Assembly: GCA_001940645.1 (NCBI GenBank)
Contig: MDVS01000131.1
Coordinates: forward strand, 1 to 64,000
Direction of reading: 5' to 3'
DNA: 64,000 nt
Source of the DNA: Candidatus Heimdallarchaeota archaeon LC_3
GTDB lineage: Archaea > Asgardarchaeota > Heimdallarchaeia > Hodarchaeales > LC-3
Of this stretch, positions 31,665-59,825 are shown piece after piece (the stretch's first letter is position 1; each line of letters starts with the position of its first letter). The notes beneath the pieces are model-generated. The model made no database searches, was not told the DNA's origin, and was given only the letters and a program-made list of their open reading frames with translations. The translations under genes were made by a program, and so were the position numbers.

Positions 31665-31715
31665 ATTAAGTAATATCAGATTAATTCATTTTTCATTTTG
31701 ATAAAATTTAATTTG

Positions 31716-34631: not shown

Positions 34632-34982
34632 GAAATAATTATTAAAATATATTATGTGGGAACCAATAACTTTTAGTTTTTTAAAATAAATTATCATAAA
34701 AAATATAATATACCGATATCCATTAAGGATTGTAAGATTAAATTCTTTTTTAATCAAAACTTATCATTTATTAGGTATTAAATACAAGTGTTACTTATTC
34801 ACATCAGGATTTAAATTCTGTTTACCAGGTTTAATTGGGCAATTAAAGATTTGAAATTTCTTATTTCTGGGATTTTATAAACCACAAAAAATTATTTCTA
34901 AAGAAAAATAAAAATAATATAAATAATCCTAAAAATTTATACATGTTTTTTGAAAATATTAATATTAAATGGAACATTAGTC
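34632..34982. other. Leader region upstream of dndC
   Basis: About 350 bases with no gene. It holds a TATA-like AT run near 34905-34925 (AAATAAAAATAATATAAATAA), within reach of an archaeal promoter for dndCDE. No operator or dndB-type regulator gene was seen. Confidence 0.4.
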
Positions 34983-36518
34983 ATGAAAAAAGAAAATTTC
35001 TCTTTAGACTTGCCAGTTGATGAAATTATTACATATCAAATGCCTTTAAATACCAAAACTAAGCCTTCTGATTCATTAATAGACTTAGAAAAAATAGAAT
35101 CGATTTATCAAGAAATAATTGATCTTTACACCAAAATGCAGTGTCCATGGGTAATAGGATATAGCGGTGGTAAAGATTCAACAGCTACTTTGCAAATGAT
35201 ATGGCATTCTTTAAAGTTACTTGAAGAAAAAGAAAGAAAATATAATATTTATGTGTTTGCATCCGATACGATGGTTGAGAATCCAACCATTTCATTTCGG
35301 ATAAATGAGGTAATTAAGAACATTAGGGAAGCTAGCAAAAAAGATAAATTACCTATTTTTTCCGAAATTGTTTATCCTGAAATAAATAACTCTTTTTGGG
35401 TAAATCTTATTGGAAAAGGATACCCCACTCCTTCTCAAAAATTTCGATGGTGTACGGATAGGTTAAAAATAAGACCTATAAATCGTGCCATAGAAAAAAA
35501 ACTAATAGATTCAGGACGTGTTGTTATTGCTTTAGGAACGCGTCTTAATGAAAGTCAATCAAGAAACTTAATTATGAAGAACAACAAGGTTAAGTCTAGC
35601 TTCAACAATAAAATAACATCACATCCACATTTACATGAGGCTTATATTTACTCTCCAATTCAGGATTTTGATGTTGATGATGTTTGGGGTTATTTATTGA
35701 AAGTAAAAGCACCTTGGAAAGCGAGTAGAAGTGTTAACAGTAAAATAGATTACACTGATTCTACTAATGACAACGAAATTTTGTACGACTTATATAGAGA
35801 TGCACATGGCGGGGAATGTCCTTTAGTTATTGATCAAAATACTGAACCCTGTGGAGGAAGTAGATTTGGATGTTGGACTTGTACATTAGTAACACATGAT
35901 AAAACCGCGGAAACTTTAATTAAAAATGGTCAAACTTGGTTGAAACCCCTTGTAGAAATTAGGAGACTATTGAAAAGAACTCAAAATCCGGAGAATAAGG
36001 AAATATATAGGGATTATAAGAGAAGAAATGGACAAATTTCCTTTAATTCCAATGAAAAAAGGAAAAATGAAGTTGTACCGGGATCCTATAAATTAGAGTT
36101 CAGGAAAAAATTATTAAGAAAAATATTAAAGGCACAAGAAGAGATATTAGTTAATTCACCTTATAAAGACATAAAATTGATCAGAGAGGAAGAACTTTTA
36201 GAAATTCGACGTCTTTGGAGAGTTGAAAAAGGAGATTGGGAAGATTCTGTGCCAAAAATTGTAAAAGAGGTATCTTCTTTAGAAATAGATTGGCTAATTG
36301 ATGATTTAGACATTTTTACCAAGGATGAAAAAACAATTCTAGAAAAATTTTGCAAAGAAGAAAACGTTCCAACCGAACTAGTTATTAAATTAATTGAAGC
36401 AGAGAGAGAAATGGATGGTATGCTTAAAAGAACAAATAAGTTAAAAAAAATCATTAAAATCTCTAAAGAAGAATGGAGATCTTTAAAAGAAGTCTTAGAA
36501 GAAAGAATTCATGAATAA
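34983..36518 (+). CDS. dndC: DndC, DNA phosphorothioation sulfurtransferase
   Basis: About 511 residues. It has the PP-loop SGGKDS (61-66) of PAPS-reductase-like enzymes, FRWCTDRLKIRP, and the cluster ECP...EPCGG...FGCWTC, cysteines that in DndC hold an iron-sulfur cluster. Length and the C-terminal helical part fit DndC, which activates DNA with ATP so that sulfur replaces a non-bridging phosphate oxygen. The start is uncertain: ATG at 34983 is preferred over TTG at 34950. The gene is followed 15 bases later by dndD. No dndA cysteine desulfurase lies nearby, so sulfur presumably comes from a housekeeping IscS/SufS. Confidence 0.93.
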   Translation: MKKENFSLDLPVDEIITYQMPLNTKTKPSDSLIDLEKIESIYQEIIDLYTKMQCPWVIGYSGGKDSTATLQMIWHSLKLLEEKERKYNIYVFASDTMVENPTISFRINEVIKNIREASKKDKLPIFSEIVYPEINNSFWVNLIGKGYPTPSQKFRWCTDRLKIRPINRAIEKKLIDSGRVVIALGTRLNESQSRNLIMKNNKVKSSFNNKITSHPHLHEAYIYSPIQDFDVDDVWGYLLKVKAPWKASRSVNSKIDYTDSTNDNEILYDLYRDAHGGECPLVIDQNTEPCGGSRFGCWTCTLVTHDKTAETLIKNGQTWLKPLVEIRRLLKRTQNPENKEIYRDYKRRNGQISFNSNEKRKNEVVPGSYKLEFRKKLLRKILKAQEEILVNSPYKDIKLIREEELLEIRRLWRVEKGDWEDSVPKIVKEVSSLEIDWLIDDLDIFTKDEKTILEKFCKEENVPTELVIKLIEAEREMDGMLKRTNKLKKIIKISKEEWRSLKEVLEERIHE

Positions 36519-36533
36519 AGTGAGAAATTTCAA

Positions 36534-38531
36534 ATGTACTTAATTGAATTACAAATCGAGAATTTTAAAGTTTTTGAAGGATATCATAAAATTAATTTTC
36601 AGACTAAACCAGATAAACCTTTAATTATTATAGGTGGAGACAATAGTAGTGGAAAATCTTCGATTTTTGAAGCTATTGGTATCTGTTTACTTGGTAAAAT
36701 TTTTTTTAAATCCCGAGGTTCGACTTCAAACTATTTTGTTGAGTTACGAAAAAGAACTACTAGAACTGATTCGAGAGAATATTCCTACACTAATTTAGAA
36801 ATGAAATTTAAAGTAACTCAAATGGGAAAAGAAAATACTTATCTGATAAAAAGAAATTGGAAAATTGATAATTTTAATTTAAGAGAAACGGTTTCAGTAT
36901 TCAAAAATGGGAATAACATCAATGAAAACAACGACAAATTATGGGAAATCCTCATTTCAGAAATGATTCCTCCAGAATTACCAGATTTATTCTTTTTTGA
37001 TGGAGAAAAGTACGAAAAATTTCTCGACTTTTCTAATAATGGAAAAATCATTACAGAAAGTTTTCAAAAACTAATTGGATACAAAATACTTAAGAGACTT
37101 GAAACTGACATTGATGAAGTGAGTGATCAATTAATAACAAAAAATGGCTCGAGAGATAATAAAAACAAATATTCAAAACTTATCAATGAAATCAGTAAAA
37201 ATAATAAAGATTTAACTCAAATCAAAAGAAAATCGAATAGTTTTTTGGCTTTAGTTGAAGAAAATGATCAAAAAATAAAGAAATTAAGAGAAATTCTCGA
37301 AAATAATAATACAGAATCAGGGAATAAAAAAAGAAAGCTAGAACAAGAAAAAATGGTAATTATAAATAATCAAGAATTAATTTTTAGTTCTATTTTAGAA
37401 AAGTTCAACAATTTGTTTCCTTTTCTTTTGGTTCAGGATTTAAATAAAAATTTAGTTCAGCAAATTAAGAAATCAAATGATGGACAATTTTTAGATGAAC
37501 AAATTGAATTCATCAAGGATGTAAAGTCTAAATATCTCCTTATTGATGAAAATAATTTATTCTGGGATAATTATCACTTAAAAACAGATGAAAAAGAAAA
37601 AATATCTAATCATATCTTTAATCATATAATTTCCTTTCTAAAAGAAAAAAAATTGAGTCATTCTCTAAAATTGGACCTCACACCCAAAAAATCAGCCAAT
37701 TTGATTAAAAAAATACAATCTGTAGACATAAATCTAGAAAAATCAGTTAAAAAACTGCTAAGTGATTACAAAACGAATGAAAAATCGAATGAAAAGATTA
37801 ATTCGAAACTTGAGATTACAAATAGTTCTAAAGAAACAAAGAATGTTTTAGATAACCTTGAAAAATTAATAATTAAACAAAATAGATTAGAAGATGGAAT
37901 GAAATTATTAAAAATCAAAGAAAATGAAATTACAATGAAACTTTCAAATTTATCAAAGAAAAAGGTAGAACTTAAAAAATTTGAAAGAATCAGTGGATAT
38001 CTAAATTCAGTACAAAGAGTGATTGATAAATATTCTAAAGACCTATTTTATAGAAAAAAGAAAATATTCATTAACAATTTGATTGAAATTTATCAATTAC
38101 TTTCAACAAATAGCAATATTATTCAAAGTGTCTTGTTAGATGAAGATTCTTTGGAATTCAAGTTATTTTCAAGAGAAAACTCTTTGAATAGCGAAAATAC
38201 TTTCTCTAGTGGTGAATCTCAAATATTCGCACTGTCAGCAATTTGGGCATTATTCAAAATGATTCGATGGCCGATGCCTCTTATTATTGATACACCATTA
38301 TCTAGACTAGATTCTCATCACAGGAAAAATTTAGTCAATTATTTTTTTCCAAATATTAGTAACCAACTAATATTGTTTTCAACAGACACGGAAATTGATA
38401 AACAACTATTTGAAATGGTTTTTTCTAAAACATCACAGTTTTATCATATTCAAAAGAGTCTTAGTTCTAATTCATCATCTATTAAAGAGGGATATTACTT
38501 TACAAAGGAGGAACTTTTCAATGAGCATTAA
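36534..38531 (+). CDS. dndD: DndD, SMC/Rad50-like ATPase of phosphorothioation
   Basis: 665 residues. Walker A GGDNSSGKS is at 34-42, and the DndD-typical LFFFDGEKYEKF follows at about 150. A Lys/Glu coiled coil occupies the middle, then the signature FSSGESQIFALS and Walker B PLIIDTPLSRLD. DndD is the ATPase of the DndCDE complex and is thought to open or nick the DNA for sulfur insertion. The stop of dndD overlaps the start of dndE by 11 bases, implying coupled translation. Confidence 0.93.
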   Translation: MYLIELQIENFKVFEGYHKINFQTKPDKPLIIIGGDNSSGKSSIFEAIGICLLGKIFFKSRGSTSNYFVELRKRTTRTDSREYSYTNLEMKFKVTQMGKENTYLIKRNWKIDNFNLRETVSVFKNGNNINENNDKLWEILISEMIPPELPDLFFFDGEKYEKFLDFSNNGKIITESFQKLIGYKILKRLETDIDEVSDQLITKNGSRDNKNKYSKLINEISKNNKDLTQIKRKSNSFLALVEENDQKIKKLREILENNNTESGNKKRKLEQEKMVIINNQELIFSSILEKFNNLFPFLLVQDLNKNLVQQIKKSNDGQFLDEQIEFIKDVKSKYLLIDENNLFWDNYHLKTDEKEKISNHIFNHIISFLKEKKLSHSLKLDLTPKKSANLIKKIQSVDINLEKSVKKLLSDYKTNEKSNEKINSKLEITNSSKETKNVLDNLEKLIIKQNRLEDGMKLLKIKENEITMKLSNLSKKKVELKKFERISGYLNSVQRVIDKYSKDLFYRKKKIFINNLIEIYQLLSTNSNIIQSVLLDEDSLEFKLFSRENSLNSENTFSSGESQIFALSAIWALFKMIRWPMPLIIDTPLSRLDSHHRKNLVNYFFPNISNQLILFSTDTEIDKQLFEMVFSKTSQFYHIQKSLSSNSSSIKEGYYFTKEELFNEH

Positions 38532-38892
38532 CAGACTTTATTTAGACAGTAAAGCGACCCATCGTTTAGGGAGTTTGAAAGCTAGGACAAAACTTAATAG
38601 AAATGTTATTGCTAGAGTTGCTTTATTGATCTCCTTGAAAGAAGATGTAATACCAGATTTTGGAAAATTTGATTCATCCGGTATGGAAATGAACCGGACC
38701 ACACTGACTGGTGATTTTGATGACTACATTATAAGCCTGATTAAAATTTGGTTATTAAATAATGATTTAGAAATATCTGATACTAATGTTAAAAATGTTC
38801 TAACATACCATGTTAATAATGGAGTTACAAAAATGATTTCAATAACCAAAAATGGTTTAATAGGTTTAGCAGAATATTTTTGCAATAATTAA
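38521..38892 (+). CDS. dndE: DndE, nicked-DNA-binding subunit
   Basis: 123 residues starting MSINRLYLDSKATHRL. It shows the DndE pattern: KARTKLNRNVIARVALLIS, MEMNRTTLTGDFDDYI and a late HVNNGVTKM. DndE is a small all-helical protein that binds nicked double-stranded DNA and completes the modification complex. A longer frame opening at 38395 exists, but the overlap with dndD makes the ATG at 38521 the natural start, preceded by GGAGG eight bases upstream. It ends 8 bases from the end of the convergent NurA-like gene. Confidence 0.93.
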   Translation: MSINRLYLDSKATHRLGSLKARTKLNRNVIARVALLISLKEDVIPDFGKFDSSGMEMNRTTLTGDFDDYIISLIKIWLLNNDLEISDTNVKNVLTYHVNNGVTKMISITKNGLIGLAEYFCNN

Positions 38893-38900
38893 AAACAAAT

Positions 38901-40157
38901 CTAGTTTATTATGGACTTCAATTTAAACGGACTATCTAAAGTAGATATTAACCATTTTTCAATCTGTTCAATTGGAAAAAGTTCTACTAAGGATCTATGA
39001 GAATTTTTTTGAGGATAAATCCATCTTTCTGATAAAATTGAACTTAAAACCTTCTTGAAATTGCTATTACAAAGATTGTTGCTTAATATTTCTTGTGATG
39101 TCAATGATAAAGATTCACATGAGTCCAAATCACTTTCTGGGGGAATTATAGCGGGAATGGGAATATCGAATCTTACCAAAGCCGAATAACCTGAGGAAAT
39201 ATCAGGTAAAATTGCTAGAAGCGATGGACGTAACTGAAATATTGCACTAAGAATCACACTACCTAAATGCCGTGAGAAATCACTAGTTACATCATTTAAA
39301 TTCCAAACAAATATATTTGAACATTCTCTTGTTGAATTAAGTAAATCTTGAGCTACTTTGTTTGGAAGACGAATAACAGTTTTAACCGATCCAATAATTG
39401 ATTTTAGAAATTGAAATTTTAATCTATAAGAGTTTAAAATTTTTAAATACTTTTTACTAACCAATCTTTTATATGTTTCTAAATTCACCAAAGGGCCATC
39501 AATTATTAATTTCTTAGAGGGATTTTCTGTAACAAATTCCATTGCTAAACCAAGTTCTAGTATTGTTCTTAATACTCGGACACGACTAAGAGCATTTGAC
39601 CTAATCAAGCCCATTTGACCTAAAACAGATGAATCAATTTTATTGTCATTCTGTGAAAATTTAAGGGAGGTATCACTTACAAAAAACGAATCTGGAGGTT
39701 GTTGAGTTATTTTAGTGTAAATATTACCACTGCTAGAAAAATTAAAGTCCTTATCAATTCTGAATCTTGTATTAGCTTTCTTTTCTAGAGTTCTAAATGG
39801 TCCAAGTAGTACACGGAAGCTCACTTTAGTTGTAGGTTCTAATAAGCCATTTTTGGGATTTCTAAACATAATTCCTGCTGCTATGTGGGCAAGATGCAAA
39901 GGAACTTTATATTCAGAAAATCTAATTAATTTAGTAATAACTGTTTGTTGAACACCATCAAGATAATAGTTATAATCGTATGAAGGGGGATAAGAAGGTG
40001 ATACTGGACTAAACCATATATGATCTCTTGTTATTGGCTTATCAGAGGATCCAATACCAAGATCTGGAGATTTTTCTTCAATACTATCAGTAATTTGAAT
40101 TTGCTCAATATCAAATTCTTCAACAAATTCAATTATATTTTCAAGACTCTGGTTCAT
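38901..40157 (-). CDS. NurA-like 5'-3' nuclease, divergent
   Basis: 418 residues, last gene of the ten-gene operon. YYLDGVQQT places a D-G pair at 67-68, and KKLIIDGPLV places a second D-G at 220-221. Both occur at the spacing seen in the undoubted NurA at 58656 (79-80 and 179-180), followed by a C-terminal stretch with conserved Arg/Asp-rich strands (LPDISSGYSALVRFDIPIP). NurA is the nuclease that works with HerA in end resection. The gene overlaps the HerA gene by 17 bases, the normal archaeal pairing. Overall similarity is low, so this is motif and context based. The gene itself is intact. Confidence 0.65.
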   Translation of the reverse strand: MNQSLENIIEFVEEFDIEQIQITDSIEEKSPDLGIGSSDKPITRDHIWFSPVSPSYPPSYDYNYYLDGVQQTVITKLIRFSEYKVPLHLAHIAAGIMFRNPKNGLLEPTTKVSFRVLLGPFRTLEKKANTRFRIDKDFNFSSSGNIYTKITQQPPDSFFVSDTSLKFSQNDNKIDSSVLGQMGLIRSNALSRVRVLRTILELGLAMEFVTENPSKKLIIDGPLVNLETYKRLVSKKYLKILNSYRLKFQFLKSIIGSVKTVIRLPNKVAQDLLNSTRECSNIFVWNLNDVTSDFSRHLGSVILSAIFQLRPSLLAILPDISSGYSALVRFDIPIPAIIPPESDLDSCESLSLTSQEILSNNLCNSNFKKVLSSILSERWIYPQKNSHRSLVELFPIEQIEKWLISTLDSPFKLKSIIN

Positions 40158-41814
40158 TAGGAATCACGATAAGCAAAGGTATAGGAAAATATACTATCAT
40201 TGGGCTAGGATAAGCTGGATGTCTCATTATCACTTGTCCTTTTTTCAAATATGGTACTAAAGCTCTCAATTCTCCAATTGGGTTATAAATTGAGTTTTTT
40301 ATTTCGGAAATCTCTGAATAACCTATCAATTTGGTCACGCTATTTCCAAAAACCTCATCGTCAATCTGAGAAGCAAATTGCTCAGCACCAATTAAAGTAA
40401 AATTCATAGCTCTTCCTCTCGCTACTAAATCTATGATTTGTCGTTTTACTGGGGCACTAGTTCTTTTGGGTGCAAATTTATTCAGTTCATCAAAAAACAC
40501 AACTACTCTCGAAAATATTGGATTTTGATCTTCCATGTTAGTAAAAATTTCTCTTATAACTGCATTACCAATTAAACGCATTTCCTCGTCTGTTAAACGG
40601 TTTAACTGAATTACATTTATACCTCTAACTAAATCCTCAGGCAAAATATTATTACCTAACGATTCGTTTCTTTATATTATGTGTCTTGACCTATTTAGAA
40701 ATGTATTGATTCTATTAAGAACCACTCTTACTGTTCCAGGCTGGAAGGTTCCTGTTCCATTTTCTACCCGGACTCTATTACTTTGTTGATTTGCTGCTTG
40801 TTGTAAATCTTGAATGAAATCAGTAAATGATGCATTTTGGTGATTTATTATATAATCCTGTATTAATTGCTCTTGTGGGGGAGAGCTAGCCTCATCATTT
40901 GCAAATAAAGACGCAAATAAATCAAGAAATGTTAAATTACCTAAACCATACGAATAATAATCAGGTGACTCCATTAAGTTTGCATCTGGATCTAATTCGT
41001 AAGTGAAATATTTAATTTCACTTGGAAATTCCATTGGATTGAGGCCATTTTCTATCAGTGATTGCCAAATAGCATAATTTTGGTTTGCAATATCGCTAGT
41101 TGAATTGGTTTGTCCTCAATTTTTTAGCCCGTTTACCAATTCCTCCAAAGAATTTGGAATTAGATGTAAATTTAAGAAGTCTTGTGCTTTAACATTGAAA
41201 ATAACAATAGAAAGATCTTCATTATTCCTATTTGCCCATTCATTCAGAGAATTTACAAGAAACATTGCGTAACTTGATTTTGTAGCCATCCCAGAAACAC
41301 CGGTGATATTTAAATGACCCGATTCAGGTCCTATCAGCATATTTGAATCAAAGAAAATAGGAGACCAACTTAGAGGACTGGTAACTTTATCATCTATCTT
41401 TAGCAAACCATCCAATATTTTTCTATTAATGGGTATGGATCTATGAAGTAAATTCAAATCTTCGGTAGTAGGTCTTCGAATCGCGTAAGAATCTCCAGGG
41501 GGAACAACGCTACTTATTGTTCTTGATAAAAGTACCAAACTGGCAATGCGGATAATGGGTGGTTTTGATGCTGGTACCTCATTTGGATTTCCAAACGAAT
41601 GTCCAAAAAATGCCTCGATATGACTTTTTGTTGAAGAAGTTGTCTTAATTGAATCAACCATAACCAAAATTCTGTCAGAGCGATCTTTATCTTCAGCAAT
41701 TAAAAATTGAGTTACTTCAACATTTGAATCAGTAATCCAAGCTTGAAAATGAAACGGATCTGCTTGCTCTCTTTGAGTAATTAATAGACGGCCAATTATG
41801 GGATTCAACGACAT
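40141..41814 (-). pseudogene. HerA-type hexameric ATPase with two in-frame stops
   Basis: One continuous minus-strand frame of 557 codons interrupted by TGA (41116-41118) and TAA (40672-40674). The first piece has a HAS-barrel-like N-terminus (GRLLITQREQAD, RILVMVDSIK) and a P-loop variant GVSGMATKS (172-180). The last has Walker B VVVFFDELNKFAP, the arginine-bearing LVARGRAMNFTLIGAEQF, and the closing strands of HerA/FtsK proteins. Protein sense runs straight through both stops (RHII-stop-RNESLG). HerA pumps DNA to NurA, encoded next with a 17-base overlap. The gene is probably inactivated in the sequenced strain, unless the stops are consensus errors. Confidence 0.8.
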
Positions 41815-41815
41815 G

Positions 41816-42691
41816 CTAAACTCCTCTATCTCTAATTAAATCTCTATTTCTGTAATTTTCTCTCTGATACTCAATAAACCTTGCTATTTCCGGATGAACA
41901 TAAAAAAAATCATCTTTCACATCAGCCAAAATATAGCTAGTCTGATTTAAATTCAATCCTAGTAATCGGTTCAGAATTCTATTTCGTCTATTGCTGTCAT
42001 GTCCAAAAAGAGCTGAAGAAATATCATTTTTACTAATTTTATCACTTTCATCATCTTCTTGTTTTGTATTTGCAATTATCGAAGAAATAATATTTAAGAT
42101 TCCTATTGCTGATTTCGGAATTCTTGTAGAATAGTTATCTAGATAGTGATTTATGAGTTCTAATGTTAAAGAAGCAGTTATTATTCCCCAATATTCATTT
42201 AAAGTCTGGGTAAATATTGAATCATTAATTGCAGTGTTTATTTCTCTTAAATTAATTAATCTAACAAGAACTTTTCCTGGAATGATATGAAGGCCATTAA
42301 ATGACAAAATTTGTGCTTTATTAAATGTTTTAAATGCTAAATCGAGTATTATATGAGAATTTTCTTTAAAAGTTAATTCCTCAAGAGGAAGTTGGTCAAG
42401 AAGGATGGAATTTTTTGGATTTGGATTCACAACAAATAAATTGATAATTTCTTGACCCAATTCTCTAATATTTGCAACCATCGGATCCACTAAAAATAAG
42501 CAGGAAAAATGTCTCATAACATCAGATATAATTGGAGTAACAATGCCATCAACAGATTTCTCGTATTCTCCAATTATATCATTTAAAAAATAAATTGTTA
42601 TATCATCAATCTGACAAAAGTAGTCATTAACCAGATTTTTTTTGTTACAAATCACACAACGTTTTTCCTGTCCGAATCCATTTATTTCCAT
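41816..42691 (-). CDS. Zinc-ribbon helical protein, third paralogue of the operon
   Basis: 291 residues. The N-terminus carries a C-x2-C (RCVICNKK) and a further Cys (DYFCQIDD) followed by a helix (TIYFLNDIIGEYEKS) that matches in position and style the two zinc-ribbon proteins encoded further upstream in the operon. The mid-region TASLTLELINHYLDNY corresponds to their L-x-T-L-Q-L-F-Y-D-Y segment. The C-terminal part differs. It overlaps the Rad50-like gene by 10 bases and ends 1 base before HerA, so it is co-translated with them. No known family; a structural or DNA-end adaptor role is a guess. Confidence 0.65.
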   Translation of the reverse strand: MEINGFGQEKRCVICNKKNLVNDYFCQIDDITIYFLNDIIGEYEKSVDGIVTPIISDVMRHFSCLFLVDPMVANIRELGQEIINLFVVNPNPKNSILLDQLPLEELTFKENSHIILDLAFKTFNKAQILSFNGLHIIPGKVLVRLINLREINTAINDSIFTQTLNEYWGIITASLTLELINHYLDNYSTRIPKSAIGILNIISSIIANTKQEDDESDKISKNDISSALFGHDSNRRNRILNRLLGLNLNQTSYILADVKDDFFYVHPEIARFIEYQRENYRNRDLIRDRGV

Positions 42692-44637
42692 GTATTTATA
42701 TCCAACCCCTTTACAGAAGGATCTAATAATGATAAAACTATTGAAATGTTTAGATTTTTTGCAATATCGCTAAGATAGCCAATGAATTTCTTTTGTTTAA
42801 CTCCATCTAAATCATTGTAAACATCATCTATTAGAAAAATAGGAATTTCTTTAAGGTAAATATTTTTCGCAGAAAGCAACAATATTAATGCAATGGTGAT
42901 TTTTTCTGAAAGAGCTAAAGATGAAATATTAGTGTCTTTAGGAATCTCAGGTAGTATTAAATCGAAACTGTTGCTCAATCTCATTCCTTTTAATCTAGAA
43001 AAACCAAGAAGTTCAGTAAATTCACTAGTATTCTTATTAAAATCTTCTATTATTTCTGTTTTCTGCTCTAATGATATTTTGTATAATTTAGAATCTAGCC
43101 AATTAAGTTCATTATTTATAATGGGCATTTTTGAGAGTAAAGTATCAATATAATGTTCTTTCCCTAAAAATTTATATTTATTTTTATCAGATTCTAATTT
43201 AGCTTTAACTTGACCTTTTTTGTCATTGATTTCATTATTTATTGATTTAAATTTCTTTAAAAGTTCTTCGCCTTTTTTGTTAGTAGAAAGAAGGTTGTTA
43301 TACAGGTTTTCATTTTTTTCAATATTATTTTTCTTTTCTCTTATTATCTGTTTTAGAGAATTTGATGCAAGTTGAAAATCAGCCATCTTTCTATTATTAT
43401 TACCGACTTCACTTGTTAAATTCCGGATTTCAGTAATCAATTCCTTTTTTTGAGCTTTAAGATCCCTTAGCAAATCGATTTTCTTTTTTAGGTCGGTAAG
43501 TTCACCTTCAAAAGCCTTTTTTTCCGATACAAGATCGTTGTTAAGGCTAGTTAATTCACTTTGATGATCTTTTAAATGGATGACTAGATTATCGAAATTA
43601 AAGGTTTCTGATTTACATAAAGGACAGGTGGGGGTTCCTTTTTTGAATGAATTTTGAGCTCTCTTAACTAATTCAATGTTAGCCTTTAATTCACCAATTC
43701 TTTCTGATTTCCTGATTCGAATATCTTGTAAACCAGTCCATTCTTCATTTTTTAAGTTTAATCGGGACTCAAGATTCTCCTTTTCAAATTTAATAATTGT
43801 TTCAGATATATTTTTTAGACGATCTTTATCGAGTTTGATTTGCTCTTCAATATTAGTCAAATTAGTTTGTAGCAAATCAATTTGTGAGTTAACATCATAA
43901 GAATCTTTTTCATTTGTTTTCAATGTTTCTTTGTCGCTTTTTATTCTCTTTACTAGATTTTTTAATTCTTTTTCTGTTGAAGGATCATAATTCAACTTAT
44001 CGAGTTCTTTTTGATTTTCACTTTTTACCCTTTCTAAATTTTCAATTTTTTTCTTAATTTCGTTTATATTTTCAATATTTTTTGATATTTTCGCTTTTTC
44101 GGAATTTATTTTGATCATTTCTTCATCTATTATTGATAAATATTTAGATAAAGCTTTTCTTGATATTTCATAATATTTAGCCTTTGATAACTCCTCTATT
44201 AGCCAATTATAACTAATTTTACCATCATCTAATTGTTTCAATGCAGTAGAAGATCTAGATAGCAGTCCAGCTATTAAAAGTTTCTCAGCTTGTGGTGATG
44301 AAATTATAAAAGAATTGTTAGATTTTTCTAATTTAATTGACCATTTTTGCTTGCGATAATTTGTGGAAATTTCAGCAATTTCCGTTTTATTGTGAATTAT
44401 TGTTTTTAGATCTATTTTACCCTCCTTAGACAGACCTATATTATCCGCAATATCTGAGTATTTAAAAACTCCATCTTCTGGAATAGCAAAAGCAAGTAAA
44501 ATAGCTTTTATTATAGAGGATTTTCCAGAAGCGTTGTTACCTCTGATACACGTTACAGTTCCTGGATTTAAAGACAAATTATATTCATCTAATAATCCAG
44601 CAAAATTCCTAACTTTAATTACTAAATTTGAGTTCAT
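42682..44637 (-). CDS. Rad50/SMC-like ATPase with C2H2-type element in the coiled coil
   Basis: 651 residues. Walker A GNNASGKS is at 33-40, and long Lys/Glu coiled coils run from about 160 to 330 and 360 to 500. Between them C338-x2-C341-x12-H354-x3-H358 has exact C2H2 zinc-finger spacing, at the place where Rad50 has its CxxC hook. The signature reads LALSEKITIALI, and Walker B IPIFLIDDVYNDLD has Asp in place of the usual catalytic Glu. It should bind DNA ends and dimerise through the coiled-coil tip. It starts by ATGA overlap with the 41-aa gene. Confidence 0.85.
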   Translation of the reverse strand: MNSNLVIKVRNFAGLLDEYNLSLNPGTVTCIRGNNASGKSSIIKAILLAFAIPEDGVFKYSDIADNIGLSKEGKIDLKTIIHNKTEIAEISTNYRKQKWSIKLEKSNNSFIISSPQAEKLLIAGLLSRSSTALKQLDDGKISYNWLIEELSKAKYYEISRKALSKYLSIIDEEMIKINSEKAKISKNIENINEIKKKIENLERVKSENQKELDKLNYDPSTEKELKNLVKRIKSDKETLKTNEKDSYDVNSQIDLLQTNLTNIEEQIKLDKDRLKNISETIIKFEKENLESRLNLKNEEWTGLQDIRIRKSERIGELKANIELVKRAQNSFKKGTPTCPLCKSETFNFDNLVIHLKDHQSELTSLNNDLVSEKKAFEGELTDLKKKIDLLRDLKAQKKELITEIRNLTSEVGNNNRKMADFQLASNSLKQIIREKKNNIEKNENLYNNLLSTNKKGEELLKKFKSINNEINDKKGQVKAKLESDKNKYKFLGKEHYIDTLLSKMPIINNELNWLDSKLYKISLEQKTEIIEDFNKNTSEFTELLGFSRLKGMRLSNSFDLILPEIPKDTNISSLALSEKITIALILLLSAKNIYLKEIPIFLIDDVYNDLDGVKQKKFIGYLSDIAKNLNISIVLSLLDPSVKGLDINTWK

Positions 44638-44759
44638 TGTTGATTATCCTCCATACTCAATAAAATCCATTTCAAAATCAATTCTTGGTATATTTTTTCG
44701 TTTATTATGCCAGAATCAGCTAGCTTCTTTATTTCTTCAAAAATTTCTTCTTTTTTCAT
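44634..44759 (-). CDS. 41-residue protein between two operon genes
   Basis: An open frame of 41 codons: Lys/Glu-rich start (MKKEEIFEEIKKLADSG) and a second helix (EKIYQELILKWILLSMEDN). Its ATG overlaps the TGA of the preceding gene and its TGA overlaps the ATG of the Rad50-like gene, so it fills the gap exactly. This double coupling supports a real gene. It looks like a two-helix subunit or adaptor that could bind the Rad50-like ATPase. No family recognised. Confidence 0.65.
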   Translation of the reverse strand: MKKEEIFEEIKKLADSGIINEKIYQELILKWILLSMEDNQQ

Positions 44760-45553
44760 CAATATTCCTCTAAAATGGTTGTTAAAATTCCAAAATAGTC
44801 CAATTTAAAAGCTTTGTGTTGATTGAACTTATTAGAAAAGGCTTTATAGACATCAGAAATATTATCTTTGCTCAATTTTTCTTTTGTAACTTCATATAAA
44901 TAGGAAGCACCTATAGATCGACCTTTTCTATTCTTAATACTTTTTAATTCTTGATATAACAATGAAAATTGAATAGGTTTTAATTCAATTATCGGTTTTA
45001 AATCCTTATTTATTTTTTTCTTGTCATCAAAAATAAAAATGTTTTGTTTAGCGTTTTTAGCTATACTCATAGTTCTTCCAACGTTTCCTGCATAATCCCC
45101 TCCTAATAAGAGTCTACTCCTTGCAGCTACTGTAGAAACTCTTCCAGATTCCTCTCTGTATTCAAATTTTATAATTACAAAAAATCCATCGCAAAACTCA
45201 AGCACTTCTTCATCAAAGGTTGAGTATAGTGAAGGAGACTCCAAACTATCATAATAAGGAATGATCCAATTGAATTGGAGATAATTTAATTCAATATGAG
45301 AAATTTCGTTCAATATTTCCTTTTTAAAGTCTTCTGGATCATTAAAATAAGTATTAAGACCCACTGTCAATCCAGTATTTATACCCACTCTTGAGAACCC
45401 AGAAGATCTTAATACACTTAGAAATCTTATGAAATACCCTCTGTTTGAAGTATTCAATATCTTCCAAAAATTCGAAGAATCAAAAAAGTCTAAAAACTTT
45501 TTGAAATCAGCAGGGACAATGCTAACAGATAAGGTACCTTTATCGAAATCCAT
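44759..45553 (-). CDS. Unknown operon protein, alpha/beta
   Basis: 264 residues with mixed strands and helices. It starts MDFDKGTLSVSIVPADFKKF, has a glycine-containing middle (RVGINTGLTVGLNTYF), an acidic stretch and a segment AARSRLLLGGDYAGNVGRTM that could be a nucleotide- or ligand-contact loop. A helical C-terminus follows. No Walker motif or nuclease signature is present. It lies between the AAA+ ATPase (9 bases upstream) and the 41-aa gene (overlap). It could be the substrate or adaptor of the AAA+ ATPase. I do not recognise it. Confidence 0.6.
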   Translation of the reverse strand: MDFDKGTLSVSIVPADFKKFLDFFDSSNFWKILNTSNRGYFIRFLSVLRSSGFSRVGINTGLTVGLNTYFNDPEDFKKEILNEISHIELNYLQFNWIIPYYDSLESPSLYSTFDEEVLEFCDGFFVIIKFEYREESGRVSTVAARSRLLLGGDYAGNVGRTMSIAKNAKQNIFIFDDKKKINKDLKPIIELKPIQFSLLYQELKSIKNRKGRSIGASYLYEVTKEKLSKDNISDVYKAFSNKFNQHKAFKLDYFGILTTILEEY

Positions 45554-45562
45554 TTAAAACAC

Positions 45563-46306
45563 CTAAATTTTATTAATGACAGTATCAGTTATCAAATGTT
45601 CAACATTTCTGATCGAGGGTTTCAAATCCTTTTTAAGGAGGTTTGAAATATGTTCTAGATCCCTCGAATCAAGATTGTATGCAATAGCATATTTTTGGGC
45701 AATATTCATCAAATCTTCGTGGTTTGGGAGGTCTAAAAAAAATGGATAAAATCTACTTTTCAATGCATCATCTACTAGATCTAATCTATTTGTTGTACCC
45801 ACAACGATATTTTTTGTGACATTTAGAGAGTCTAATTGGTGAAAAAATATGGAATTAAGAGAAAAATGCCATTCTTTAGCTAATCCTGCATTTCTACCTA
45901 AAATGAAAGTTTCTACATCATCAAATAGAATTAGGGTTTTTTCTTTATTTTGATTTGTGGAATTTACTTTAAAAATTTCTCTTAATTTTTGCTCCCCCTC
46001 ACCCCATTTAGGAGCAGCTATATCCCCACCATCTACAAATTGTAATTTTACCCTACCAGAGTTTGTTCTCTCGAAATCAATGTCTAAATCATAAACTAAT
46101 CTTTTAATTATTTCTGTTTTACCCGTACCTGGAGGACCATAAATTAGAAATCCACGAAAAGGCAAAAGAGCATCACCTTCATGTTTTGTAAAAAAATAAT
46201 TACAGATTCTCGTAATTTTAGATTTTAAGGTTTTCTGATTATTTAGTAATTTATGAAAAGGAATATTGGAATAAATATCTTTACCGTATTTTATTGATCC
46301 TACCAT
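45563..46306 (-). CDS. AAA+ ATPase, classic AAA type
   Basis: 247 residues. Walker A GPPGTGKT (57-64), Walker B ILFDDVETFILGR with D129-D130, then QLDSL, the sensor-1 NIVVGTTNRLDLV, and ALKSRFYPFFLDLP with the arginine finger. The lid domain follows. DDVETF plus a lone AAA module is reminiscent of Pch2/TRIP13-type remodelers, but I cannot confirm this. It lacks an N-terminal substrate domain beyond about 45 residues, so the neighbouring unknown protein may supply it. It begins after a one-base gap from the zinc-ribbon gene upstream. Confidence 0.8.
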   Translation of the reverse strand: MVGSIKYGKDIYSNIPFHKLLNNQKTLKSKITRICNYFFTKHEGDALLPFRGFLIYGPPGTGKTEIIKRLVYDLDIDFERTNSGRVKLQFVDGGDIAAPKWGEGEQKLREIFKVNSTNQNKEKTLILFDDVETFILGRNAGLAKEWHFSLNSIFFHQLDSLNVTKNIVVGTTNRLDLVDDALKSRFYPFFLDLPNHEDLMNIAQKYAIAYNLDSRDLEHISNLLKKDLKPSIRNVEHLITDTVINKI

Positions 46307-46307
46307 T

Positions 46308-47195
46308 TTAATTTTCCCTCTCCAAAGTTCTAACTAGAGTATAATCTCTTATTTGATTTATACCGTTTATAAATTCTCCAGTAAATTCAAAGAGTAGTTC
46401 TCCATCAATCATTCCCGGACCCTTTCTAATGTTTGTATCTTTTATCATCTTGTGATAGTAAGATGGATGAACATTTTTTAAAAGATCCTTAAATAATTCT
46501 CTTGCAGTTGGACTAATTTTCCTTTTTTTAAGGAATAAATCAATATTAGATTCATTAAAAGATGTATTCTTGAAATATACAGTGATAAAAAGAAATAGAT
46601 ATTTTATCCATGTAGTTCGAATTACTTTTGATTTATCATCATTAAAATCGTTTATATAATCATAAAACAATTGTAGGGTTATTAAACCTAAAAGTGTCCG
46701 AGCAGTTTTTTCATGTTCTTGATTTTCTAAATTAGAACCAGTATTGACTTGTTTGTTAAAGACATCAGAAAATTTCTGAAATAAGGGATTAAGAATAATT
46801 TTTCGCTCCACCGGATCTGTTTGAATTACAATTTCAAGAAGGTCAACATTTTTAAAAGGTTCTAAAATACTTGAAATTTTTTTCTCAGTTCTGGTTAATT
46901 TTTGTAATTCTGAAAATGTAAATTCCTTTTTTGGATTTTTATATGTTTTACTCAATAATCCTTTAACTAAATTATTATAAGGAGCTAGTAAGGGATTATT
47001 TGTAGATCCAAGTAATCCTAGCTCCCTAATTAGAAAAAATATATCATTACTATCAACAGAGATTATCTCAACTTTATTACATTCTTCCATTGCCTTTTCA
47101 TAAAACTTAGAAATAAAGTCTATCATATGCGTACATTCCTTACACCTCATTTCTTCATCTACTATCTTAACTTTGCAATATTTACACAATTTCAC
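46308..47195 (-). CDS. Zinc-ribbon helical protein, second paralogue
   Basis: 295 residues. A GTG start preceded by AAGGTG opens a zinc ribbon CKYC...CKEC followed by a helix (DFISKFYEKAMEE). The rest is helical and shares with the upstream paralogue a block of pattern RTLLG-LITLQLF, TTWIKYLFLF, ESNIDLFLKKRK and RKGPGMIDGELLFEF. The block near the C-terminus (PGxMxGEL) is the strongest link. No enzymatic motif is visible. It lies between paralogue one and the AAA+ ATPase. Probably a scaffold component. Confidence 0.7.
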   Translation of the reverse strand: MKLCKYCKVKIVDEEMRCKECTHMIDFISKFYEKAMEECNKVEIISVDSNDIFFLIRELGLLGSTNNPLLAPYNNLVKGLLSKTYKNPKKEFTFSELQKLTRTEKKISSILEPFKNVDLLEIVIQTDPVERKIILNPLFQKFSDVFNKQVNTGSNLENQEHEKTARTLLGLITLQLFYDYINDFNDDKSKVIRTTWIKYLFLFITVYFKNTSFNESNIDLFLKKRKISPTARELFKDLLKNVHPSYYHKMIKDTNIRKGPGMIDGELLFEFTGEFINGINQIRDYTLVRTLEREN

Positions 47196-47201
47196 TTTGA
47201 A

Positions 47202-48098
47202 TCACCTTTCCAAATTATACTCTCTAGAAATATCTCTTTTTAATTCTCTCAGTCGTAAATCGGTTCTAACGCGAGTTACTGAGTTGTTAAATTCTTCATT
47301 TAGATTTAGCTGTAGCTCACCTTCCATTTTACCAGGTCTTCTTTTTGGTTCTAGTTTTTCAATCATATTACTCCTGTTAAATGCATCTATCCCTTTTAAA
47401 TTATTAAGAAAATATTTTATTTGTTGTTTAGGTAATTTTCTACTTTTTAAAAATGATACCAATTCTGATTCGGTAAAATTACTTGTTTTCAGATATGGAT
47501 AGGAAAAAATTCCGATAAATTTTATCCAAGTGTTCTTTAAACTCATTTGTTTTGTTAGTTTTTGGCCTCTTGTGTATTGTTGAAATAAAATTAATGAAAT
47601 GTACCCAAAAAGTGTCCTAACACTAGTTAAATCATCAGTCAGGTCAATGTGTGATGAATCGGGATTAACTGCATCAATCAATTCGTCAAAAAATAGAAGA
47701 AGTTTTTCTTGAAATATATAAGAGTTATCGTCACTTATCAGGAGTCCGGAAATTTCAAATGGAAAAGCCAAAACTTTACTTACTGACAAATCTGAACTAC
47801 TTTTTATAAAAGAATTGAAATTTATCCGGTCTCTCTTGTATAAAATTTCGGATGCTATGGCATTACATGCCATTAGATAATATCTACAAGACCTTTCATT
47901 ATAGTTTAAAGAAGCTAAAACACTTAGTAAATCAAAAAAAGAATTTGATTGTGGATCTACTGTGGAAACTGACATTAATTCTAGCTCAACCAAAAATATA
48001 AATTTCTCGATAAAATCTACACCTATTAAACATTCCTTGCATAATTTTAAATTATCGATTTTGTTAGCATCGTGAAAACTACATAAATCACAAATCAT
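47202..48098 (-). CDS. Zinc-ribbon helical protein, first paralogue
   Basis: 298 residues from the ATG at 48098, two bases after the stop of the PIN gene and eight bases after a GAGGT ribosome-binding site; a longer frame to 48131 would overlap the PIN gene and is not needed. It starts MICDLCSFHDANKI with C-x2-C and a second CKEC. It shares RTLFGYISLILF, NTWIKFIGIF, ESELVSFLKSRK and RRPGKMEGELQL with the next gene, so the two arose by duplication. No catalytic motif. Presumably a hetero-oligomeric subunit of the system. Confidence 0.7.
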   Translation of the reverse strand: MICDLCSFHDANKIDNLKLCKECLIGVDFIEKFIFLVELELMSVSTVDPQSNSFFDLLSVLASLNYNERSCRYYLMACNAIASEILYKRDRINFNSFIKSSSDLSVSKVLAFPFEISGLLISDDNSYIFQEKLLLFFDELIDAVNPDSSHIDLTDDLTSVRTLFGYISLILFQQYTRGQKLTKQMSLKNTWIKFIGIFSYPYLKTSNFTESELVSFLKSRKLPKQQIKYFLNNLKGIDAFNRSNMIEKLEPKRRPGKMEGELQLNLNEEFNNSVTRVRTDLRLRELKRDISREYNLER

Positions 48099-48100
48099 AG

Positions 48101-48913
48101 TTAAATAACCTCTTCTGTAAGTTTTGGGCATAAAGGACCAAATAATTTACAATTAAGACAATCCATGTCGAGATTGGGTATTAATTCATCGTAATATGAA
48201 CACTCTATATGAATCATGGGTTGTAATGGCAATAATTCTTTTTTTTCAAATAAATCGGCTTCTAATTTTAGCGTTTTTCTTTTAAATCTTATTCTTGGGC
48301 GCTTCTCGGCTTCTATAAATTTGGTAAAACTTATATCTTCCTCATGCCTTATCTGATTTAGATCTATTACACGATCTTTAGTTACAGACCTAAATCTCAA
48401 TTGTTTGTCATGGAATTTTTGCCAAAAACGCTGATAATTTGTCGTTGTTGATTGTGTTGATAAAAACTTAAACAGCGAATAAGGGGTTAAAAATGGGATT
48501 GAATGAGTCATTAAAACATTTAATATCCCAGAATCTGAAGTTATCATCCAATAATCATTGTTCAGTGCAAGGAAGAGAAGATCTATATCATAGTGATCTT
48601 TTGCTTTGTTACTATATTCATGTAAATATCGTTTCCACGAACTAGATGACCTATTAACGTCTATAACGTTCAAAATTCCTTTATCGATCCAATCTTGAAC
48701 GGTTCTTTTATAATCCTTCCATTCTTTAGGTTGATCATACTTCCATTGGTTGCTGATAAACAAAACAAGCTTTTTTGAACAAAATTGAGAATATTTCTCC
48801 TTTAATTCTTCAAAAAAGGTTATAACAGCCTTTGACATGTCATGTTTCATGTCTAACACCATCATAATATCAAACAAAGCGTTTGTGTCTACTAATAATT
48901 TCACTGGGTTCAT
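48101..48913 (-). CDS. PIN-domain nuclease with C-terminal cysteine cluster
   Basis: 270 residues, first gene of the operon. VKLLVDTNALFDIM puts the first PIN acid at D9, DHYDIDLLFLALNN the middle acids near 117, and MITSDSGILNVLM the last near 135. The C-terminal third is basic (RIRFKRKTLKLEADL) and ends with CSYYDEL...CLNCKLFGPLCPKL, four Cys that could hold zinc or an iron-sulfur cluster. It is too long for a VapC toxin and has no antitoxin; the context suggests a nuclease subunit of a DNA- or RNA-targeting complex. GAGGT lies nine bases before the ATG. Confidence 0.75.
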   Translation of the reverse strand: MNPVKLLVDTNALFDIMMVLDMKHDMSKAVITFFEELKEKYSQFCSKKLVLFISNQWKYDQPKEWKDYKRTVQDWIDKGILNVIDVNRSSSSWKRYLHEYSNKAKDHYDIDLLFLALNNDYWMITSDSGILNVLMTHSIPFLTPYSLFKFLSTQSTTTNYQRFWQKFHDKQLRFRSVTKDRVIDLNQIRHEEDISFTKFIEAEKRPRIRFKRKTLKLEADLFEKKELLPLQPMIHIECSYYDELIPNLDMDCLNCKLFGPLCPKLTEEVI

Positions 48914-52091: not shown

Positions 52092-52940
52092 TCAATCCCA
52101 TTTATAATTACCCTCTCTCCCTAAAAAAGTCGAATAAGAAAATGTAGAAAATTCAAATGCTTTTTCGACACCAACATCTAAGATAGAAGGCCCATGGGTA
52201 AGAATTCCGGTATCATTATTGAAAAATCGACCTTCAGGATCTATCATGACATATCCACCTTTCATATTTTCATTTCTTTCAATAACTGGATTATTTTTCT
52301 TATGAACTTCTGTAAAATGGGTATATTGTTTAGGAGTGACAATCATATCCGCAGCATCGTCATTTTCTCCTAATATTGGAAGTATTTGGAAAACTTTCCA
52401 CCTTTTTGGGTTTACTTTGTCAACTAACCAATTCATGTCTTCATTCCATGTTAAAGAAGTTACAACAGTATTTAATTTTATTATTATATCATTTTTCTCT
52501 AATAAATCAGCAACACGTAGACTTCTCTCAACGTGGCCTCCTGTACCTCTTCCAAGACGTATATTAATTTCTTCAATACCAGAATCTATACTTAAACCGA
52601 CCCAATCTAATTTATTATCCATTAAATCTAAATAGGATTGAGTTATTTTGTATCCATTAGTAATCAAAACAGTTGTCATCCCTAAATTAGAAGCGTAGAT
52701 TATTAATTTTGGTAAATAATTAATAAGAGTAGGTTCTCCACCAGCAAAGGTAATTTTACGGGTGCCACTCTTATATAATAGATTTATTATTTTTTTCGCT
52801 TCTTTTTCGCTTAAGTGATTTTTTTCGACTTTATTAAAATGTGCATAACAAAATCTGCACTTAAAATTGCATACTTTTGTTAAATGATAACTAAGGCTAA
52901 GAATCTTATCCTGAAGTGTAATATTATTAGTAATACTCAA
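52092..52940 (-). CDS. Viperin-like radical SAM enzyme (prokaryotic viperin)
   Basis: 282 residues. The radical SAM cluster motif CNFKCRFC (C24-x3-C28-x2-C31) is followed by FAGGEP near 66-71. The C-terminal half is diagnostic of viperin rather than MoaA-like enzymes: NPKRWKVFQILPILGEN, then NENMKGGYVMIDPEGRFF, SILDVGVEKAFEFS and the ending EGNYKWD. Viperins convert CTP, GTP or UTP to ddhNTP chain terminators that block viral RNA synthesis. The membrane-binding N-terminal helix of animal viperin is absent. The TTG at 52940 is the only start seen. The gene is single, facing the phosphotransferase gene. Confidence 0.92.
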   Translation of the reverse strand: MSITNNITLQDKILSLSYHLTKVCNFKCRFCYAHFNKVEKNHLSEKEAKKIINLLYKSGTRKITFAGGEPTLINYLPKLIIYASNLGMTTVLITNGYKITQSYLDLMDNKLDWVGLSIDSGIEEINIRLGRGTGGHVERSLRVADLLEKNDIIIKLNTVVTSLTWNEDMNWLVDKVNPKRWKVFQILPILGENDDAADMIVTPKQYTHFTEVHKKNNPVIERNENMKGGYVMIDPEGRFFNNDTGILTHGPSILDVGVEKAFEFSTFSYSTFLGREGNYKWD

Positions 52941-54396: not shown

Positions 54397-55632
54397 CTAA
54401 ATTTGAGGAGGTACAGGTGGTTTGGTTCCTACATCGCCTGCAATTTGGGGATGATTTCGTAATTCGACGCAAAAAGTTTTAAAATCGCATAAAGTACAGT
54501 TTCGTTGGACGGGGAGAGCTGGCCAAACTTCTAAGGGGTGTTGCCCTTGGATTTCATCGATAATACAATCTTCAATTTGTCGAACTGTATTATCAAAGGC
54601 GAGCAGAGCATTTTGTTCGATATTCGGAGTGATCGGGATGATTTTAAGCGCACGCTTTCCCTTGAACCGATTGGTTATTGGGGGAATTTCATCGTGTCGT
54701 TGATAGTTGCTAATCGCATTAAAATCAGGACTTCCTTCAACAGGTGCAATATCTGTCAAATTGTTTGCAATTTCCTGTTTGAGAGTCCATAAATCCCGTT
54801 TAGATGGTACCAACTCATTCACATAAATTACAATCCCGGCTAACACCGGGATATTTCCTTGTTGTTGACGGCGTAACCACGCATAGTCAGCAATTTGCCA
54901 TTCATGATGTTGGGCAGTCGAATCGTCAAGGTCATTGGCCGGAGGACGACGCATACCCTTATAGTCAATAATGATTTCAAAATTTTGGATGGTGTCAGGA
55001 CCTCCTAGGATTTCTACTTCTTCTAAGGCTATCAATAATTGGCTATATGGATGAGCTTCAACTAAATTTACGGATGAAATAACATCCACCACTCCTGTCA
55101 ACCCATAAATAGGAGAACGATCAGTTTGCCTAGGAACAGGCATCGATCGGACTCCTTTTAATCGGCGTTCAACTTCGCTGATAAAAGGATAAATCATTTC
55201 GCCAATAATTTTAATAGACATTTCTGCCCGTTGACTGGCTAAAAGTTTATGAGGATGATGAGGATCATTCTCTTCACCACAACCACTGGTAGTTTCATTG
55301 TTTTCATTATACCAGCAGAATAAATCCGGGGTAGGCCGAATTCCTCGATTACTTAATTGGCGATAAATATCCATTTCCATAGGTCTGAGATCAGTTTGCC
55401 AAACCAATGCATTTAAGTTGAGATTCTTTATCTGTTGATAATGGTGGTATCCTGCAGCCATCATTTTGTGTAAAAATTCGCCAAACCAAATTTGGGTAGG
55501 ATTTGGACTCGTCCAATCAGCTTTGCGATGGTATCGATATTGTAGACCACAACGTAAAAAAGATAAAAAATCTCCAGTTAGTGAATATTCTGGAATTATT
55601 ATATCTGAATGTCTTCCTTGTAAAAGGGGCAT
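54397..55632 (-). CDS. PD-(D/E)xK nuclease with iron-sulfur cysteines (Cas4/AddB-like)
   Basis: 411 residues. An N-terminal Cys (C28 in FLRCGLQY) and a C-terminal cluster C379-x2-C382-x5-C388 form the four-Cys arrangement of AddB/Cas4-type nucleases with a 4Fe-4S cluster. The nuclease core has GLTGVVDVIS supplying the first Asp and FEIIIDYKG supplying the D-x-K. It should be a single-strand exonuclease. Its start directly abuts the stop of the UvrD-type helicase, a pairing that recalls AddAB/RecBCD or phage-defence helicase-nuclease pairs. By eye this pair is richer in G+C than its neighbours, which hints at separate transfer; this was not computed. Confidence 0.8.
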   Translation of the reverse strand: MPLLQGRHSDIIIPEYSLTGDFLSFLRCGLQYRYHRKADWTSPNPTQIWFGEFLHKMMAAGYHHYQQIKNLNLNALVWQTDLRPMEMDIYRQLSNRGIRPTPDLFCWYNENNETTSGCGEENDPHHPHKLLASQRAEMSIKIIGEMIYPFISEVERRLKGVRSMPVPRQTDRSPIYGLTGVVDVISSVNLVEAHPYSQLLIALEEVEILGGPDTIQNFEIIIDYKGMRRPPANDLDDSTAQHHEWQIADYAWLRRQQQGNIPVLAGIVIYVNELVPSKRDLWTLKQEIANNLTDIAPVEGSPDFNAISNYQRHDEIPPITNRFKGKRALKIIPITPNIEQNALLAFDNTVRQIEDCIIDEIQGQHPLEVWPALPVQRNCTLCDFKTFCVELRNHPQIAGDVGTKPPVPPQI

Positions 55633-59822: not shown

Positions 59823-59825
59823 TCA

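Follow-up and report, generated by a model that had tools for sequence, protein, structure and literature searches.

Does an operon of ten genes that faces the DNA phosphorothioation genes of an archaeon encode one defence complex, or have separate modules come to lie end to end? The question is posed by contig MDVS01000131.1 of Candidatus Heimdallarchaeota archaeon LC_3 (assembly GCA_001940645.1), of which positions 1 to 64,000 were analysed; this whole stretch of 64,000 nucleotides is called the window below. In it, ten genes at 38901–48913 on the minus strand run towards dndCDE, and a preliminary description of the same DNA had taken them for a new complex linked to phosphorothioation. The reading tentatively favoured here is a narrower one: the last two genes of the operon may be a second, bacterial-type HerA-NurA pair that serves as the translocase-nuclease, that is, the restriction, arm of a modification-linked defence. 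What speaks for it is that genes of this HerA-NurA family are found repeatedly next to DNA modification genes.

The ten genes and their HerA-NurA pair

By their open reading frame (ORF) coordinates the ten genes are co-directional, and the nine junctions from PIN to NurA (31-bp overlap, 6-bp gap, 1-bp gap, 9-bp gap, 4-bp overlap, 4-bp overlap, 10-bp overlap, 1-bp gap and 17-bp overlap, the first of these, between the PIN protein and zinc-ribbon protein 1, with the first ATG taken as start) show them packed as one transcription unit. NurA ends at 38901 and dndE at 38892, that is, the two are convergent with an 8-bp gap; number, strand, packing and spacing of the genes are as described before. 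ARAGORN detected no tRNA in the window, nor was there an Rfam match. In order of transcription, the features are:

48101–48913, minus strand: PIN-like nuclease, operon gene 1, 270 aa; PF08745 at E 0.044, below cut-off, acidic motifs seen by eye
47202–48131, minus strand: zinc-ribbon protein 1, 309 aa; CxxC at 14–17 and 31–34, paralogue of protein 2
46308–47195, minus strand: zinc-ribbon protein 2, 295 aa; CxxC at 4–7 and 18–21, weak partial LmuA match (19.4 bits)
45563–46306, minus strand: AAA+ ATPase of the classical AAA clade, 247 aa; PF00004 66.6 bits (cut-off 21.2)
44759–45553, minus strand: protein of 264 aa without assigned family
44634–44762, minus strand: small protein, 41–42 aa, seen as an ORF only; 4-bp overlaps on both sides
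42682–44637, minus strand: archaea-specific SMC-related protein (ASRP) by profile; NF045487 352.1 bits (cut-off 300)
41816–42691, minus strand: third cysteine-rich protein, 291 aa, partial zinc-ribbon-like start (CxxC plus one Cys)
40141–41814, minus strand: HerA, bacterial (Deinococcus) type by profile, frame interrupted by two in-frame stops
41116–41118, minus strand: in-frame stop TGA of HerA
40672–40674, minus strand: in-frame stop TAA of HerA
38901–40157, minus strand: NurA-like nuclease, 418 aa; D67, E201 and D220 conserved

For the comparison with bacterial HerA the frame was read through. With the HerA family profile, the Deinococcus HerA structures 7f6d, 7wrw and 7wrx gave E 2.3e-72, and E rose to 6.2e-9 for the next solved HerA; the window protein has a P-loop and a Walker B motif and adjoins a NurA homologue. 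The latter, correctly named NurA-like before, matched a profile of bacterial NurA genes at E 1.1e-11 with an hhalign probability of 99.65%, and it keeps D67 (shared by 57 of 58 bacterial rows), E201 and D220 (each shared by all 58), residues that by analogy to the RNase-H-like family are probably catalytic. These profiles place HerA-NurA of the operon with the bacterial (Deinococcus) type. It resembles the known pair (PDB 7F6D, 7WRW, 7WRX) in the HerA profile match and in having a profile-level homologue of NurA, and differs from it by the interrupted HerA, the order HerA-then-NurA, the defence island around it and the place at the end of a ten-gene operon.

A further NurA-HerA pair is encoded in the window at 58638–61505 on the plus strand, with Pfam scores of 35.6 bits for NurA (cut-off 21) and 86.7 bits for HerA (cut-off 23.2); this HerA stays below the NCBIfam HerA cut-offs. 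Since that pair carries the Pfam domains, the HerA-NurA of the operon is a second, bacterial-type pair. The plus-strand pair is followed at 61508 by the gene for an 831-aa protein with no match in Pfam, NCBIfam or PHROGs.

Neighbours of the HerA-NurA family

The nearest relative of the window HerA (P0007, 62% identity) and that of NurA (P0002) are both encoded on a 12,470-bp JGI metagenome contig, presumably one and the same. The window HerA groups with P0007, P0008 and the HerA of Thermomicrobiaceae bacterium CFH 74404 (genome G121) in a clade with SH-aLRT 99, as judged from a quickly built tree of 93 rows; a sister group of this clade, P0009–P0013, has an N-terminal extension of about 130 residues. 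In G121, a three-gene operon is made up of the co-directional genes for a DndC-like protein of 370 aa, HerA and NurA, whose junctions are an overlap of 4 bp and a gap of 4 bp. The order HerA-then-NurA is common to G121 and the window, and the DndC-like protein is 31% identical to the window DndC over 369 aligned positions.

A genome scan yielded 565 HerA relatives, 80 of which were kept as the locus sample that the family counts describe; five loci from viral contigs raise the sample to 85, four later ones to 89. NurA adjoins HerA upstream in 54 of the 80 loci and downstream in none; it is further off in two and was not recognised in 24. A DndC-like protein was found near HerA in none of the 85 other loci, which makes the DndC link particular to the clade of the window and G121. 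Surveys with the NurA alignment gave one match in 158 genomes of the class, one in 400 of the phylum, none in eight and two weak ones in six; with the HerA alignment at E 1e-70 they gave 26 of 251, 1 of 294 and 4 of 400 (the genome sets of NurA 1/158, NurA 1/400 and HerA 4/400 partly overlap). In the HerA surveys G121 scored 838.7 bits and all others, which belong to the wider family, at most 329; four of the best loci of the 26 show a methyltransferase once and a DndC-like protein never. The NurA search yielded the query and three other proteins; the plasmid search with HerA yielded six records, each covering at most 73% of the query.

The second kind of modification gene next to the pair is a methyltransferase gene. 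A protein of about 1,100 aa matches its profile beside HerA in eight of the 89 loci (L002, L003, L005, L006, L013, L014, L083 and L102; the match of L014 is partial and at a contig edge); N6-methylase and Eco57I-type methyltransferase domains were identified in the two proteins scanned, those of L083 and L102. The gene lies directly upstream of NurA in L002, L006, L013, L014, L083 and L102. In L003, whose ORF calls contain no NurA, it precedes HerA, and in L005 it follows HerA. A single ten-row group of the tree holds seven of the eight loci (L102 is not in the tree), and its other three rows come from contigs that begin too near the pair to show an upstream gene. Methyltransferase–NurA–HerA, in L083 on a viral contig, is a possible methylation-linked restriction system. 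In the literature searched, no paper was found that deals with DndC, HerA and NurA together, and the link between HerA-NurA and modification seems to be undescribed there. The phosphorothioation-linked restriction proposed in the preliminary description survives as a tie between this HerA-NurA clade and Dnd-type chemistry (the G121 operon and the defence neighbours of the window), not as a ten-gene complex.

The family has yet another recurrent setting. NurA, HerA, an HSP90-type ATPase and a conserved protein of about 620 aa lie together, within four ORFs of HerA, in 25 of the 80 loci, mostly of Bacillota and Bacteroidota (e.g. L008, L009, L011, L019, L023, L024 and L026–L028), and also on the viral contigs L081, L082, L084 and L085; an HSP90-type ATPase and a further conserved protein are neighbours in 26 of the 80. 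The protein of about 620 aa has, by eye, a CxxxCxxC motif resembling that of radical SAM proteins and has no Pfam match; the cassette looks like an undescribed multi-gene defence candidate.

The upstream genes and the surroundings

The preliminary description had called the SMC-like protein of the operon a Rad50/SMC-like ATPase. Its four matches to Rad50 models do not exceed 24 bits each, and it passes the NCBIfam model NF045487 instead, by which it is classed as an ASRP; the absence of Mre11, noted at the same time, stands, as no Pfam Mre11 family matched the operon proteins (nine scanned whole, HerA in three pieces). The ASRP family takes in coalescin and Sph, and ASRPs are placed in the SMC superfamily in the account of PMC9389158. 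The operon protein resembles them in passing the NF045487 cut-off; haloarchaeal members are described as paired with RdfA in 42 of 50 cases (PMC10869688), whereas the neighbours of the window ASRP are the 42-aa protein and the cysteine-rich protein. No RdfA-named NCBIfam match was obtained in the operon at E 0.01. A search with the ASRP returned only the query and one relative of 24% identity on a 5,025-bp contig.

For the other upstream proteins the earlier names hold to different degrees. That of the AAA+ ATPase is borne out by Pfam. The PIN protein scores 13.7 bits with PF08745, below the cut-off of 27, and its identity is accepted on the acidic motifs seen by eye. Of three supposedly related zinc-ribbon proteins, two are, from their sequences, paralogues (27% identity, BLASTP E 3e-24); the third, which has three of the four ribbon cysteines, showed no relation to either that sequence comparison could detect. 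Zinc-ribbon protein 1 matched no family in Pfam, PADLOC, NCBIfam or PHROGs; protein 2 was modelled with a mean pLDDT of 38.1, with protein 1 as its sole aligned partner. The 264-aa protein (AlphaFold2 mean pLDDT 45.4) matched no family in the same four collections at the limits used, the small protein had no Pfam match, and PHROGs matched none of seven proteins. Scans of viral contigs revealed no relative of NurA, the zinc ribbons, the ASRP or the 264-aa protein, and plasmid searches none of the ASRP, zinc-ribbon protein 2 or the 264-aa protein; for the AAA+ ATPase the latter returned 123 records, all of them generic AAA proteins.

The operon faces a Dnd modification part in which DndC, DndD and DndE all score above curated cut-offs:

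31698–34631, plus strand: PLD–ResIII–helicase–DUF3427 protein directly before dndC, a restriction candidate
34950–36518, plus strand: dndC; TIGR03183 467.6 bits (cut-off 290.4)
36534–38531, plus strand: dndD; TIGR03185 305.2 bits (cut-off 245.85)
38518–38892, plus strand: dndE; PF08870 72.9 bits (cut-off 25), start set by eye within ORF 38395–38892

The product of dndD also matches PbeC models (375.1 bits versus 379.1 for DndD), and the PLD protein matches mREase_IV best (284.3 bits), followed by PbeA with up to 94.1 bits (PADLOC). HKD-SF2-helicase proteins are listed as Dnd-associated restriction candidates by Rakesh et al. (PMC10853773, section 17); the preliminary description had put the ten-gene operon where Dnd loci usually carry a restriction module, but a candidate of this kind is already present before dndC.

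The window further encodes a prokaryotic viperin (52092–52940, minus strand; NF038283 281.5 bits, cut-off 180) and a SIR2–STAND ATPase protein of 1084 aa (28303–31557, minus strand; ThsA models 62 bits), likely an antiviral NAD-consuming sensor. A defence setting fits, since viperin, SIR2–STAND and the PLD-helicase are neighbours. A UvrD-type helicase gene followed by one for a PD-(D/E)XK nuclease (54397–58164, minus strand) forms an AddAB-like pair. At some distance, two short-chain-dehydrogenase-like ORFs (2461–3135 and 6641–7384, plus strand), some 4.2 kb from each other, are near-identical over their first 60 residues and form a duplication. A further gene may be interrupted at 10908–10910 (plus strand), where an in-frame TAG stands between 131 and 74 coding-like codons.

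One system or several modules

A single conserved complex of all ten genes, as first described, finds no support in the relatives. None of the genome surveys, viral contigs and plasmids, collections that do not cover archaeal genome neighbourhoods and metagenome contigs, contained a second ten-gene copy. In G121 none of the upstream operon genes lies beside HerA-NurA, only the DndC-like gene; and no ASRP was found on the 12,470-bp contig, though a similarly close relative should be detected easily, so that either the gene is missing there or it lay beyond the end of the contig. Going by these two nearest relatives, HerA-NurA can probably be parted from the PIN, zinc-ribbon, AAA+ and ASRP genes. 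This speaks for an operon put together from two modules: one is HerA-NurA, which moves with modification genes, the other the archaeal set of PIN, zinc-ribbon, AAA+ and ASRP genes. A complex of all ten proteins is a hypothesis drawn from one contig. The earlier question of uniqueness receives a divided answer: the ten-gene unit is unique in the collections searched, the HerA-NurA–DndC part is not.

The main rival reading has two or three unrelated modules within a defence island, namely dndCDE with the PLD-helicase as its restriction partner, an independent PIN–zinc-ribbon–AAA+–ASRP operon related to defence or to the chromosome, and a captured bacterial HerA-NurA; this is a possibility that has to be taken seriously. 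It would suit the PLD-helicase gene directly before dndC, a member of the HKD-SF2 proteins that PMC10853773 names among Dnd-associated restriction candidates, the convergence of dndE and the operon, and the missing sign of upstream genes in both nearest relatives, although the ASRP of the 12,470-bp contig could have been lost at the contig end. It leaves unexplained why HerA-NurA of G121 shares an operon with a DndC-like gene, and all ten window genes are packed as one transcription unit. An operon for the resection or repair of double-strand-break ends, a variant of the archaeal HerA-NurA-Mre11-Rad50 set, is improbable. In its favour, PMC9960219 describes the resection of DNA ends by HerA-NurA in both Deinococcus and archaea, 23 of the 80 loci have SbcC, SbcD or both no more than four ORFs away from HerA, and ASRPs belong to the SMC superfamily (PMC9389158); yet no Mre11 family was matched, the SMC-like protein is by profile an ASRP rather than Rad50, another NurA-HerA pair with Pfam domains lies at 58638–61505, and the surroundings are defence genes. 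A broken HerA would also be ill tolerated in a repair operon, though the other pair could cover for it. Rad50-Mre11 itself was rejected on the scores given above (Rad50 models at most 24 bits, ASRP 352 bits, no Mre11 match).

Named defence systems offer still less. That the operon is a divergent member of an SMC-based or MADS system is very improbable: in PADLOC, whose models have no curated cut-off, the ASRP matched LmuB over nearly its full length (46.7 bits) and mad3 (33.3 bits), zinc-ribbon protein 2 matched LmuA in part, and the C-terminal piece of HerA matched mad8 (34.5 bits), all of which is weak. The mad8 model also matches the SIR2–STAND protein (23 bits) and other HerA proteins and so reports a P-loop ATPase, and no methyltransferase, LmuC or other Lamassu or MADS component was matched in the operon. 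MADS is a set of mad1–mad8 with methylation genes; it was rejected because only the weak mad3 and mad8 matches to a generic ATPase were seen. Lamassu, which combines LmuA and LmuB and in some types LmuC, is likewise very improbable, its matches being a weak one to LmuB and a partial one to LmuA, with none to LmuC. TRIP13-HORMA (CBASS) was likewise set aside: the AAA+ ATPase matches TRIP13 with 40.6 bits, equal to IetA, and neither HORMA nor nucleotidyltransferase matched in the operon. Dnd with DndFGH shares dndCDE with the window, and DndH is described as carrying a HerA/FtsK ATPase (PMC10853773); here, HerA is a protein in its own right and is partnered by NurA, and no operon protein matched DndF, DndG or DndH (PADLOC, E up to 1). 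DndCDEA-PbeABCD (PMC6459918) is similar in the PLD-Res-helicase gene before dndC with its PbeA match, whereas the window PLD protein is closer to mREase_IV, the ten-gene operon has no counterpart there, and separate genes for PbeB, PbeC or PbeD did not show up among the scanned proteins.

Several observations weigh against the restriction-arm reading as well, the state of HerA among them. That the protein belongs to the HerA family was seen rightly before, that it is encoded by one open frame was not: TGA and TAA interrupt it, whereas P0007 is uninterrupted. Its three pieces score 0.18, 0.25 and 0.22 in codon usage, the 28 other window genes 0.06–0.34, so all three are coding-like. An altered genetic code is no simple reading, because both codons serve as stops in other window genes; decay or sequencing error is preferred over recoding. 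Because HerA is interrupted, the window system is probably off and this copy inactive, unless the stops are sequencing errors, and the claim of a working complex in the source genome is not supported. Further, the operon and dndCDE are convergent and not co-transcribed, and the ten-gene unit lacks a second copy. The DndC-like protein accompanies the clade in one genome besides the window, and there its best named model, DndC, gives 187 bits, under the 290.4 cut-off. Searches of G121 that lacked a positive control detected neither DndD nor DndE; they do not prove absence, and phosphorothioation is therefore unproven in that organism. P0008 is one of the long branches in the tree that the program flagged; the SbcC and SbcD neighbours, finally, point to repair, and the family serves several settings, repair among them.

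If the last two genes are nevertheless the restriction arm, what we infer of its working, including the coupling of the two halves, is the following. The dndCDE products would mark host DNA with phosphorothioate as self; a HerA hexamer would load on unmarked or broken foreign DNA and thread it into a NurA dimer, which would degrade it. The upstream genes (PIN, two zinc ribbons, AAA+, the 264-aa protein, ASRP and the third cysteine-rich protein) may form an archaeal accessory or sensing part, in which ASRP would clamp DNA, AAA+ remodel or arm the complex, and both, together with the zinc-ribbon proteins, load or license the HerA pump; the PIN protein could be an RNA-cutting back-up effector. 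That such a pair might work in this way is reasonable because HerA with a DUF4297 nuclease is a proven anti-phage complex, as reported in PMC11291478. With DUF4297-HerA and the other HerA-nuclease defence pairs treated there, the window pair shares the two-gene module of HerA ring and nuclease, a likeness of working only: its nuclease is of the NurA family and its HerA of the Deinococcus type.

The full extension of this reading is doubtful: an undescribed archaeal phosphorothioation-linked defence in which ASRP, AAA+, zinc ribbons and PIN license a captured bacterial HerA-NurA against DNA without sulfur marks, with DndC-like–HerA–NurA as the bacterial minimal form and methyltransferase–NurA–HerA as the methylation counterpart. 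With HerA broken and no second ten-gene example, the weight of this contig alone is lower. Were the reading true, the end-resection machinery HerA-NurA would have been coupled with DNA modification on two or more occasions, with a DndC-like gene and with methyltransferases, as a restriction arm, and the resulting two-to-three-gene systems would be small enough for direct testing. An ASRP, so far a family of chromosome organisation and cell shape, would be found within an apparently antiviral operon.

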